Assembly: GCA_937891825.1 (NCBI GenBank)
Contig: CALAHN010000072.1
Location: 1 to 36,723, forward strand
Length of the DNA stretch: 36,723 nt
DNA from: an uncultured Alphaproteobacteria bacterium
GTDB taxonomy: Bacteria; Pseudomonadota; Alphaproteobacteria; Bin95
Direction of reading: 5' to 3'
Shown here one piece after another: positions 33,529 to 36,723 of this stretch (position 1 is the stretch's first letter; every line of letters starts with the position of its first letter). The position numbers and the translations under genes were made by a program. The notes below the pieces were generated by a model. It searched no databases. It saw nothing but the letters and a program-made list of their open reading frames with translations, and had not been told where the DNA came from.

Positions 33529-34233
33529 ATGACGAGCATTGAAGAACACACGATCGCCCAGAATATTGCCCGGAATCTCGCGGACGTGCGGGCGGCGATC
33601 GCCCGCGCCGCCGCCGATGGCGGCCGCGACCCGGCATCGGTCACGCTGATCGGCGTCTCCAAGCAGCAGCCGGATGCGCGCATCGACGCGGCGCTTCAGG
33701 CGGGCTTTCGGATTTTCGGCGAGAACCGCGTCCAGGAAGCCGGGGAGCGCTGGCAGCCGCGCAAGCCGGACTATCCCGACCTGGAGCTGCACCTGATCGG
33801 CCCGCTCCAAACCAACAAGGCGCGGGAGGCCGTCCGCCTGTTCGACGTCATCCAGACGGTCGATCGGCCGAAGCTCGCCGCCGCTTTGGCCCGCGTCATG
33901 GCGGAGGAAAACCGGCCCCTGCCCTGCTTCGTCCAGGTCAACACCGGCGAGGAACCGCAGAAAGCCGGCATCGCGCCCGGCGATGTCGAAGCTTTCGTCG
34001 CCGCATGCCGGACGGAGCACGGTCTGAACATCGTCGGCCTGATGTGCATTCCGCCAGCGGAGGACGCGCCCGCCCCGCATTTCGCCTTCCTGAAGGACAT
34101 GGCCGACCGCCTTGGCCTCGCCCAGGTCTCCATGGGCATGAGCGCCGACTATCCGGCCGCCGTGACGCTGGGCGCGACCCATGTCCGGGTCGGCAGCGCC
34201 ATTTTCGGCGACCGGACGCCGCGTCCGGCTTAA
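33529..34233 (+). CDS. YggS/PLPBP family pyridoxal-phosphate homeostasis protein
   Basis: This 234-residue protein is a PLP-binding homeostasis protein. The PLP lysine is Lys45 in LIGVSKQQP. FGENRVQEAGER (about 64-75), LHLIGPLQTNKAREAV, PCFVQVNTGEEPQKAGI and SMGMSADYPAAVTLGATHVRVGSAIFG follow in family order. It helps keep PLP and amino-acid pools balanced. AAGGGAC precedes ATG 33529. Its TAA overlaps the stop codon of the convergent creD gene. Confidence 0.94.
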   Translation: MTSIEEHTIAQNIARNLADVRAAIARAAADGGRDPASVTLIGVSKQQPDARIDAALQAGFRIFGENRVQEAGERWQPRKPDYPDLELHLIGPLQTNKAREAVRLFDVIQTVDRPKLAAALARVMAEENRPLPCFVQVNTGEEPQKAGIAPGDVEAFVAACRTEHGLNIVGLMCIPPAEDAPAPHFAFLKDMADRLGLAQVSMGMSADYPAAVTLGATHVRVGSAIFGDRTPRPA

Positions 34234-35618
34234 CGCCCGTCGACCGCTGGCGCAGATCCCCGCATCCGCGCCGTCGCCGCCATGGCGGCCGCGAGGCCGA
34301 TCAGCAACAGCCCGGCGCCGATCAACAGCGCCATGCCCTCGGCCGTCAGCATCACGTAGAACGCCGCATAAAGCAGCGCCAGAACGCCCCCCGCCCCAGC
34401 CCCGCGCCGGGCGGAGCGCAAGGCGAGGCCGACATAAGCCCCGTTCATCGCCGCGATCGTCAGAGCCGCCGCGACATAGGCGAGCAGAAACCCGACATGT
34501 TCCGCGAGCGCGATCAACAGCAGATAGAACAGCGCCAGCGACAAGCCGACCAGGCCATACTGCGCCGGGTGCAGCCGCTCCCCGCCGAACCGCTCCAGCA
34601 CGAAGCAGGCGAGCAATGTCAGCGCGACGAAGAGCACGCCATACTTCACCGCGCGCGTCGCGCCGACATAGAAGTCGTCGGGACGCGCATGCCGGAAGCC
34701 GACGCCGGTTTCCGCCGCAAGCTGCATTAACGTCGCCGCCTCATGCTCGGTCCATACGGCCCCGTAGCCGCGCGCCAATGCCGGGATGCTCCACGACGCC
34801 GTAAAGCCTGTGTCATCGACCGTGCGCCCTGCCGGCAAGGGCGCGCCCTGGAAGCTCGGGTGCGGCCAGTCGCCCGCGATCTTGAGATCGCTCAAGCCCG
34901 CCAGCGGCGTCAGGAAGAATCCGCCGGAGCCGTTCAGCCCAAGCGTCGCCTCGAACTGCGCGGCGCCGCCGACGAACAGCGTCGCCGGCGCCGGGATGTG
35001 AAAGAAGCGCAGCGACGTCCGGGGGCCGTCGCGCCCGGCGAACAGGCGCGCGGCAAAGGCTGGGGCGCCCGGCTTGAACGCCGCCGCCCGGCCGTCGACC
35101 ATCACGCCGTCGGCTTTCGCGAGGCCGGCCAGATCCGTCACGCCAAAGACCAATGCCGCCCGCGACCAGTCGGCGCCCAACATATTCGGAACGGCCGCCG
35201 CCAGGTCCGGCTGCACGAATTCGCCTGCAAGCTCGATCGTGCTGCGATAGACCGGCGCCTCATAGATTCCGCGATTGCGGATTTCGTGGCTGAGCGCGGC
35301 CGAGACCGCCAGCCGTTCCGGCAGAATGACCGCGACGGCTTCCATCCGGTCGATGACGTCGCCGTTGCTGCTGTCGTCCGGGGACGGGGCGACCCGCCGC
35401 TCATAGGGCACGACCAGAATTGGCCCGACCACATGCTGCTCGCCGCCTTGCTGGCTGGCGATATCGGCCAGCACGGTTTCGCGCAAGGCCGCCCGCTCGC
35501 CGATGACCTCCTCCACCATGGCGAGGGGAATCAGCAGCAGCAGGGTCAGTCCGGCGATCAAGGCCAGTTTCCAGCCGCCGCCGGCGTCCGTCCGCAACAG
35601 GCCCAGATATTGTCGCAT
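34230..35618 (-). CDS. creD: CreD family inner-membrane protein
   Basis: This 462-residue protein matches CreD (about 450 residues in E. coli). An N-terminal membrane helix (LALIAGLTLLLLIPLAMVEE, about 18-37) is followed by RAALRETVLADIASQQGGEQHVVGPILVVPY, a long periplasmic beta-rich domain, and a C-terminal block of about five membrane helices starting at GVLFVALTLLACFVLERFGGERLHPAQYGLVGLSLALFYLLL. CreD belongs to the CreBC envelope-stress regulon in enterics; no creB or creC is nearby. ATG 35618 is preferred because it gives the family start MRQYLGLLRTDAGG and follows GAGAGG; the frame is open upstream to 36206 but that part is antisense to the selenoprotein gene. Confidence 0.9.
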   Translation of the reverse strand: MRQYLGLLRTDAGGGWKLALIAGLTLLLLIPLAMVEEVIGERAALRETVLADIASQQGGEQHVVGPILVVPYERRVAPSPDDSSNGDVIDRMEAVAVILPERLAVSAALSHEIRNRGIYEAPVYRSTIELAGEFVQPDLAAAVPNMLGADWSRAALVFGVTDLAGLAKADGVMVDGRAAAFKPGAPAFAARLFAGRDGPRTSLRFFHIPAPATLFVGGAAQFEATLGLNGSGGFFLTPLAGLSDLKIAGDWPHPSFQGAPLPAGRTVDDTGFTASWSIPALARGYGAVWTEHEAATLMQLAAETGVGFRHARPDDFYVGATRAVKYGVLFVALTLLACFVLERFGGERLHPAQYGLVGLSLALFYLLLIALAEHVGFLLAYVAAALTIAAMNGAYVGLALRSARRGAGAGGVLALLYAAFYVMLTAEGMALLIGAGLLLIGLAAAMAATARMRGSAPAVDGR

Positions 35619-35742
35619 CGCCCTCTCGCCTCCCTTGATGTCCGAAGCCGCGAGTAAGCTTGGGCAATGGGCCGCTGGCGGGGCGGCGCTTGGGCCGTTC
35701 CATGGAAAGGCTGGCGTTTCCGTGTCCATCCGCCTAGCTTGT

Positions 35743-35760
35743 AAGGACTGCATTGTCCTT
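35743..35760. promoter_or_regulatory. small dyad upstream of the selenoprotein gene
   Basis: AAGGAC and GTCCTT are inverted around TGCATT, ending 17 nt before ATG 35778. It could be an operator or a leader hairpin; no -35/-10 pair is certain. Confidence 0.3.
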
Positions 35761-35777
35761 GCACGAAGGGAGCGAGC

Positions 35778-36290
35778 ATGACCGCCATTCTTGACCCGAC
35801 CGCGGAGCGCGCGCCGACCGCGCGCCCGGCGGCGGCGCGGCCGAAGGCGTTCGACGGATTGACCGTCGGCCTTCTGGATATTTCCAAGCCGCGCGGCGAC
35901 TATTTCATGATCAAGCTTGGCGAGGCGCTCGGCCAGGCGGGCGTCGCCGTTCGCCACTATCAGAAGCCGACCTTCACCAAGCCCGCGCCGACCGCGCTCC
36001 GCCAGGAAATCGCCGAGGCCTGCGATCTCGTGGTCGAAGGGCTCGCCGATTGAGGCTCGTGCACGACGTGCTGTACGCATGACGTCACGGACTTTGAGGC
36101 GCGCGGCATTCCGGCCGTGGGCGTCGCGACGACGGAGTTCATCGACGCCGCCGCCGCGCAGGGCGAGGCGCTTGGCTTCGATCCCGCGATGATCTTCGTG
36201 CCGCACCCGATCCAGGACCGCACCGACGCGGAGCTGGAAGCGATGGCGCTGGACTGGCGGGACCGGATTCTGGCGAAGCTGAAGGGCTGA
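35778..36290 (+). CDS. UGSC-family selenoprotein (in-frame UGA = Sec92)
   Basis: This 170-residue protein is read through a TGA at 36051-36053. Before it lie 91 residues: a disordered Ala/Pro/Arg-rich leader and a Rossmann-like start, FDGLTVGLLDISKPRGDYFMIKLGEALGQAGVAV (about 31-64). The UGA gives Sec92 in D-U-G-S-C-T-T-C-C-T-H-D, so Cys95, Cys98 and Cys99 surround the active site. Coherent protein continues for 78 codons (FEARGIPAVGVATTEFID, IFVPHPIQDRTDAEL) to TGA 36288. The U/C-G-S-C motif defines a known but functionally uncharacterised (seleno)protein family, probably redox-active. AAGGGAG precedes ATG 35778. A SECIS-like hairpin follows the UGA. The selenocysteine reading is inference from frame, motif and hairpin; a nonsense mutation is less likely because the motif falls exactly on the TGA. 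Confidence 0.87.
36063..36085 (+). promoter_or_regulatory. SECIS-like stem-loop after the Sec codon
   Basis: CGUGC (36067-36071) and GCAUG (36077-36081) pair around the loop UGUAC, with one G-U pair. Below an A-A mismatch the stem extends by three more pairs (A63-U85, C64-G84, G65-C83 of the 36000s). The stem begins 9 nt after the UGA and the apical loop carries a G in its first two bases, as bacterial SECIS elements usually do. The hairpin lies wholly within the coding sequence. Confidence 0.6.
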
Positions 36291-36404: not shown

Positions 36405-36431
36405 GGAGCAAGGATGGCTCATCCTTGCTCC
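36405..36431. repeat. perfect 12-bp hairpin B
   Basis: GGAGCAAGGATG (36405-36416) and CATCCTTGCTCC (36420-36431) flank a 3-nt loop. The 5' arm contains a possible GGAG ribosome site and the ATG at 36414, so the structure would hide that start if transcribed. It lacks a T run on either side. Confidence 0.55.
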
Positions 36432-36470
36432 AGGCCGCGTGCGCCGCCCCCGGAAGTGAGCCGTTTCGCC

Positions 36471-36723
36471 ATGTCCCTGCCTGTCACCGTCATCGTCGGC
36501 GCGACCGACCAGCGCCTCTGGAGCCTGCCGTCCGATGTTCGGCTCGGCCGCCTTGCGGCGCGCGCCGGCGCAGGCCCGGTCCAGACGCTGGACGCGCTGG
36601 ACGACGCGACCCCGGCATTCCTGATCCGCGCCGACGCCGTGATCGAGGAACGCCTCGCCCGGGCGCTCATCGCGAACGAGAACATCATCCTGACCGCGCC
36701 CGCCCGGCGCACGCGGGAGACGA
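36471..36723 (+). CDS. 5' part of a CDP-alcohol phosphatidyltransferase-like or related protein, cut by the window edge
   Basis: The first 84 residues are visible: SLPVTVIVGATDQRLWSLPSDVRLGRLAARAGAG, then FLIRADAVIEERLARALIAN. The pattern (a short strand, LW-L-x3-RL, then a LIRAD strand followed by a helix) resembles the nucleotidyltransferase-like N-terminal region seen before CDP-alcohol phosphatidyltransferase domains. The decisive part lies beyond the window, so this is tentative. ATG 36471 gives a clean start; ATG 36414 in the same frame, preceded by GGAG inside hairpin B, would add 19 residues (MAHPCSRPRAPPPEVSRFA). Confidence 0.45.
   Translation, partial: MSLPVTVIVGATDQRLWSLPSDVRLGRLAARAGAGPVQTLDALDDATPAFLIRADAVIEERLARALIANENIILTAPARRTRET

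Follow-up and report, generated by a model that had tools for sequence, protein, structure and literature searches.

A UGSC-family selenoprotein gene in an uncultured alphaproteobacterium and its likely separated partner gene

The window, that is, the whole stretch of 36,723 nucleotides analysed here (forward strand of contig CALAHN010000072.1, from an uncultured alphaproteobacterium), carries close to its end a short gene with an internal, in-frame TGA. The features of this locus are listed below.

34230-36206, minus strand: creD homologue (Pfam CreD, 392 bits), divergent from the UGSC gene.
35778-36290, plus strand: UGSC-family selenoprotein gene of 170 residues with Sec92 and stop codon TGA at 36288-36290, called from profile matches and codon selection.
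35853-36281, plus strand: UGSC domain (NF041046 match, residues 26-168), with a predicted five-stranded flavodoxin-like alpha/beta fold in which Sec starts helix 93-108.
36048-36062, plus strand: redox motif D91-U92-G93-S94-C95, in which U/C92, G93, S94 and C95 are invariant (n=54 sequences) and Cys95 is the likely resolving thiol.
36051-36053, plus strand: in-frame TGA, almost certainly read as selenocysteine (U92); TGA also in 80 outside homologues and in the genus copies, TGC (Cys) in relative L146.
36067-36081, plus strand: SECIS-like hairpin with stem CGUGC (36067-36071) and GCAUG (36077-36081) and loop UGUAC (36072-36076), 13 nt after the UGA.
36414-36722: start of a phosphatidyltransferase-like gene, similar to L152 3166-4329 of the same genus and cut by the contig end.

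The open frame of creD overlaps the UGSC gene in antisense only because its start has been called too far upstream. The frame of the UGSC gene begins with ATG at 35778 and runs for 91 codons to the TGA and then for another 78 codons to the stop, exactly at the coordinates given in the initial annotation, which had described the TGA as being in phase with both parts. Reading TGA as Sec gives a product of 170 residues, MTAILDPT...LADUGSCTTCCTHD...LKG, and the motif is encoded from 36051 by TGA GGC TCG TGC. The motif was expected to be U-G-S-C followed by TTCCTHD with three extra cysteines; U-G-S-C is there, but the following residues hold two cysteines (98 and 99) and not three. The position of Cys99 is usually occupied by Ser in the family and Cys98 is replaced by Trp in one paralogue, and around the motif invariance is limited to residues 92 to 95.

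The 170-residue product matches the Pfam family UGSC (PF24696) with 144.4 bits (cut-off 25) and the NCBIfam model NF041046, 'UGSC family (seleno)protein', with 141.4 bits (cut-off 125), so that the family membership first proposed stands on two models. The profile match covers residues 4-169 of 170 (E 5e-42) and spans both sides of the TGA, which is far beyond chance. The window gene is the same in kind as the family: the match extends over the whole length, Sec lies at the U of the motif and a Cys form exists. The initial annotation also held that conventional annotation would truncate the protein and lose its redox centre. The family as such has not been overlooked by annotation, since the NCBIfam model carries '(seleno)protein' in its name. 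Its description dates from 2008 or before (PMC2398784), and recent reviews list it (PMC9312934, PMC13188914). In aquatic metagenomes UGSC proteins rank among the most abundant selenoproteins (PMC2398784); the functions of such selenoprotein families are largely uncharacterised (PMC13188914).

There are five UGSC paralogues in the window genome, with one in-frame TGA each. Across five genomes of the genus all the copies listed carry the TGA (23/23), as do all the matches found in the order (18/18). Among 84,980 species genomes, scanned with patterns that left the Sec codon out, at least 564 relatives were found; in the best 80 of them TGA is present at the same codon in 80/80. UGSC was found in 3 of the 249 genomes of an evenly drawn sample of the phylum, and one of these relatives, L146, has Cys (TGC) at the Sec position. 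Thus residue 92 is Sec with GSC after it in all the homologues read, and Cys in one relative, the pattern that was predicted for a true selenoprotein family. Viral contigs were searched and no relative was found in them. On these counts UGSC is uncommon across the phylum but heavily used in the lineage of the window.

The window gene was compared with two orthologues of the same genus, both of which retain the TGA at a dS of about 1.2-1.4. The dN/dS values are 0.11-0.16 before the TGA and 0.063-0.074 after it, and 35-38 of the 49-51 changes downstream of the TGA fall in third positions. Purifying selection on the protein is strong on both sides of the TGA. The downstream stretch is real coding sequence, as originally suggested from its codon bias: the profile matches cross the TGA and the constraint continues beyond it. 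The internal UGA of the window gene almost certainly encodes selenocysteine.

In every standalone UGSC copy, positions +17 to +31 after the UGA are able to fold into a stem of 5 bp capped by a 5-nt loop. The commonest form is CGUGC-NGUNN-GCAUG, with NGU in the loop (G near the start of the apical loop). Each of the five stem positions forms a standard pair in 109/109 distinct genes. A conserved SECIS-like stem-loop thus lies downstream of the UGA, where the initial annotation had proposed to look for one. Variation is seen at the pairs 18-30 (G-U, G-C or A-U), 19-29 (U-A or U-G) and 21-27 (C-G or G-C), with few compensatory events. The 18-30 pair taken alone is not significant (Fisher test, p 0.09); A-C never occurs there, but A is rare at this position. 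In the C12 paralogue type TGC...TTG has become TGG...TTC, which turns a C-G pair of the stem into G-C together with Cys98 to Trp and Leu to Phe. RNA structure and protein change together in this UGSCSSW type, which is found at L005/L167 (G000:C12) and also at L169 and L170.

In the loop, Ser is encoded by AGT in 80/80 loci, against 79/898 (9%) for the other Ser codons of the same genes. Codons 97-101, which form the hairpin, have zero changes between the window gene and its same-genus orthologues, and silent changes are abundant through the rest of the gene. The case for the hairpin is one of conservation and codon constraint and not of energy, because single-sequence folding of the window hairpin gave a stability no better than that of shuffled sequences (z 0.24). 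An Rfam search of the window gave no match at the gathering score. A comparable hairpin, made of other bases and with a loop of 6 nt, is possible in the fused UGSC genes described below.

Genes for the selenocysteine machinery, which the initial annotation had proposed to find elsewhere in the genome, are all present. A tRNA-Sec scores 71.5 bits, above the cut-off, and has the anticodon TCA (ARAGORN). SelA (512 bits) and SelB (424 bits) are adjacent on contig C43, and SelD (276 bits) is on contig C104 beside a UGSC paralogue. On this genome evidence the host is able to insert Sec.

Clustering of the open frames around UGSC genes shows that a single protein family, referred to here as the partner, lies beside UGSC in 97/101 loci. 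It is found in 79/80 of the best outside loci and also beside the four other UGSC paralogues of the window genome. Among cultivated bacteria, Reyranella soli and Rhodopila globiformis each have UGSC together with a partner. In 76 of the 78 outside loci that were measured the partner precedes UGSC on the same strand, with a spacing of -20 to 200 bp (median 23 bp). The proteins are about 350-500 aa long and share the motifs W.DG(L/F)P..PPT, N.VMAGC.PEY, GRA and PGK..C.AEDEE. Searches of the partner cores against Pfam and NCBIfam gave no family match, and a PDB sequence search with a partner profile gave no relative. In the subfamily of the window and in the nearest paralogue type, the partner begins with a domain containing KRDCPTC, for which thioredoxins are the best matches in the PDB (E about 0.001). 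Two tandem copies of the partner gene lie beside the UGSCSSW-type UGSC in L167 and L169. There are further genes of the partner family at G000:C76 20642-21661, with no UGSC nearby, and at G000:C12 38525-39469, which is a second tandem copy.

In four genomes of the genus, UGSC and the partner are joined in a single chain that keeps the Sec codon. These fusions (L044, L045, L046 and L049, 4/5 genus genomes) are about 575 aa long with Sec in the N-terminal domain; none was found in the window's own genome. A fusion of UGSC with an unnamed domain, 'Unknown_1', has been published (PMC2398784) and, matched by its description, this 'UGSC/Unknown_1' protein is probably the fusion seen in the genus. 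A structural model of the fused protein was moderate (pLDDT 77.6), and a fold search with it gave low-TM matches only and no usable fold match for the partner.

The window copy of UGSC has no adjacent partner and is flanked by the divergent creD and the phosphatidyltransferase-like gene. In sister genera, however, the orthologues of the window gene have a partner of the thioredoxin type directly upstream. A partner of this type is present on contig C136 of the window genome and is 65% identical to the sister-genus partner that lies beside the window orthologue; it is likely to be the partner of the window UGSC copy. Close copies of the C136 partner (78-79%) are present in G003 and G004, which both have a window-type UGSC, and not in G001 and G002, which both lack one. 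Within the genus a C136-type partner at 78% or more is thus found only in the three genomes with a window-type UGSC, five genomes being a small sample. The simplest reading is that an operon has been split with both genes kept.

At other UGSC loci, CoA-transferase genes are found nearby in at least 18/80 (BLAST), and LysR regulators, TctC receptors, enoyl-CoA hydratases and luciferase-like monooxygenases are recurrent neighbours. This is suggestive of catabolism of small organic substrates.

An AlphaFold2 model of the window UGSC protein (pLDDT 93.6, pTM 0.88) has five alternating strand-helix units, with Sec92 leading into helix 93-108. In Foldseek and VIA-align searches it matches flavodoxins, receiver domains and B12-binding domains, with a TM of about 0.5 or Z of 9-11. 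The predicted fold is flavodoxin-like, which is a common fold. A thioredoxin-like fold has been suggested for the family (PMC2398784). The model does not support it and no thioredoxin is among the fold matches listed, although absence from such a list is no proof. A PDB sequence search with the UGSC profile gave no relative.

Sequence comparison points to the Sec-containing subunits of amino-acid reductases (GrdB, GrdF and PrdB; family identifiers PF07355, TIGR01917 and TIGR04483). The GrdB model TIGR01917 was matched by 14/54 UGSC sequences (best 2.4e-6), the GrdF model by 9/54 (best 1.3e-6) and PrdB by 4/54. The TIGR01917 score of 19.8 bits is far below the cut-off of 602, and the match in the window protein covers the Sec region. 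PF07355 was not among the matches of any of the 54 UGSC members. When the UGSC profile was compared with the PrdB-like selenoproteins of the order, Sec aligned on Sec with 31% identity over 104 columns (E 0.0014, probability 18%). The UGSC Sec domain is likely to be distantly homologous to GrdB/GrdF/PrdB. The partner shows no relation to the PrdB-like profile and no resemblance to GrdE/PrdA (no Pfam match). Separately from UGSC, each of the 14 genomes of the order has a GRDB-family profile match. At 11/12 loci PrdB/GrdF-like frames of about 400 aa run through a TGA in VPVUPNCT (L205 1170-2393 on G000:C44, L206, L207 and L209-L216), and a plain ORF listing cuts them just before Sec.

UGSC proteins resemble GrdB/GrdF/GrdH (component B of glycine, sarcosine and betaine reductase) and PrdB (D-proline reductase) in having a Sec domain with UxxC followed by E..GIP, in a weak but recurrent sequence match with Sec aligned, in being present in several copies per genome and in having a dedicated second subunit encoded alongside. 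In glycine and D-proline reductases a second subunit holds the substrate for attack by the selenol, and the electron donor is thioredoxin or a comparable dithiol. Glycine reductase has thioredoxin as its electron donor and a thioredoxin domain is present on some UGSC partners. In contrast, UGSC is 170 aa long against about 430 aa, its scores are far below the GrdB cut-offs, and its partner matches neither the pyruvoyl subunit family GrdE/PrdA nor any Pfam family. By description, a further likeness is to farB/farE of Cloacibacillus porcorum, a proposed fluoroacetate reductase made up of a GrdB-like selenoprotein and a dedicated second subunit (PMC10838667), in that a selenoprotein and second-subunit pair would carry out a substrate-specific reductive bond cleavage. 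C. porcorum differs in being an anaerobe with true GrdB/GrdE homologues.

Taken together, the data may be best explained if UGSC, decoded by SelB and tRNA-Sec, supplies the catalytic selenol in a two-part reductase that is recycled by thioredoxin, an explanation that we regard as evenly poised between right and wrong. The UGA at 36051 would be decoded as Sec by means of the hairpin directly downstream, and the flavodoxin-like domain would set Sec92 at a helix N-terminus beside Cys95. The partner (about 350 aa) would form a complex with UGSC and bind the substrate. The selenolate could then attack an activated C-N, C-S or C-halogen bond, in the manner of glycine/sarcosine reductase, or some other reducible bond, after which Cys95 would form a selenenylsulfide and so resolve the intermediate, oxidised or alkylated. 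Re-reduction would be by thioredoxin, which in the window's subfamily is fused to the partner, and the five paralogues per genome may be substrate-specific versions. The analogy with the reductase complexes is drawn through the Sec subunit, because the partner does not resemble GrdE/PrdA.

Alternatively, UGSC could be a true selenoprotein that acts as a general thiol or peroxide oxidoreductase, like a thioredoxin or peroxiredoxin, for which the partner would be a client or regulator. The UxxC motif, the published suggestion of a thioredoxin-like fold (PMC2398784) and the thioredoxin domain on window-subfamily partners are all consistent with this. We consider it unlikely, however, as the five strand-helix units of the model match flavodoxin, receiver and B12-binding domains with no thioredoxin among the matches listed, the sequence relatives are GrdB/GrdF/PrdB, and a near-obligatory single partner with recurrent catabolic neighbours fits a substrate-specific enzyme better.

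It is very improbable that the UGA is a regulated switch, giving a 91-residue product when selenium is low and the full protein when it is available, with the window copy being partly a sensor or an orphan relic. Such a role would agree with the missing adjacent partner and with a position between creD and the phosphatidyltransferase-like gene, not among catabolic genes, but the strong purifying selection (dN/dS 0.11-0.16 before and 0.06-0.07 after the TGA) and the conservation of the partner elsewhere in the window genome argue against it, and the short product would cut the domain ahead of its catalytic residue. Finally, although a one-base difference (TGC or TGG to TGA) is all that a misread Cys or Trp codon or a pseudogene would need, the chance of this is negligible: it is refuted by orthologues of other assemblies and by the 80 outside loci, which all have TGA at this codon, and it also fails to account for the full Sec machinery and the constrained hairpin.

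In the openly accessible literature we found no report of a separate UGSC partner gene, of a thioredoxin domain on the partner or of a link to GrdB/PrdB. Within that scope, the following appear to be new: a separate partner gene that is close to obligatory and often bears a thioredoxin domain, the proposed splitting of the operon at the window copy, a model with a flavodoxin-like fold, and the likely distant kinship with GrdB/PrdB.

Returning to UGSC as the selenol subunit of a two-part reductase, we suggest tentatively, and with more doubt than confidence, that UGSC and its partner could represent a new selenium-dependent class of proteobacterial enzymes. Its members would be catabolic reductases combining GrdB/PrdB-type selenol chemistry with a hitherto unrecognised substrate-binding subunit of new fold, some with a built-in thioredoxin, and several substrate-specific pairs would be present per genome. 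With the partner gene, the distant tie to the reductases and the thioredoxin module on some partners, an 'unknown selenoprotein' becomes a specific two-subunit enzyme model within reach of expression and assay. If the proposed chemistry is true, reductive cleavage by a selenol, so far a feature of anaerobic fermentation of amino acids, would extend to free-living aquatic and soil proteobacteria.
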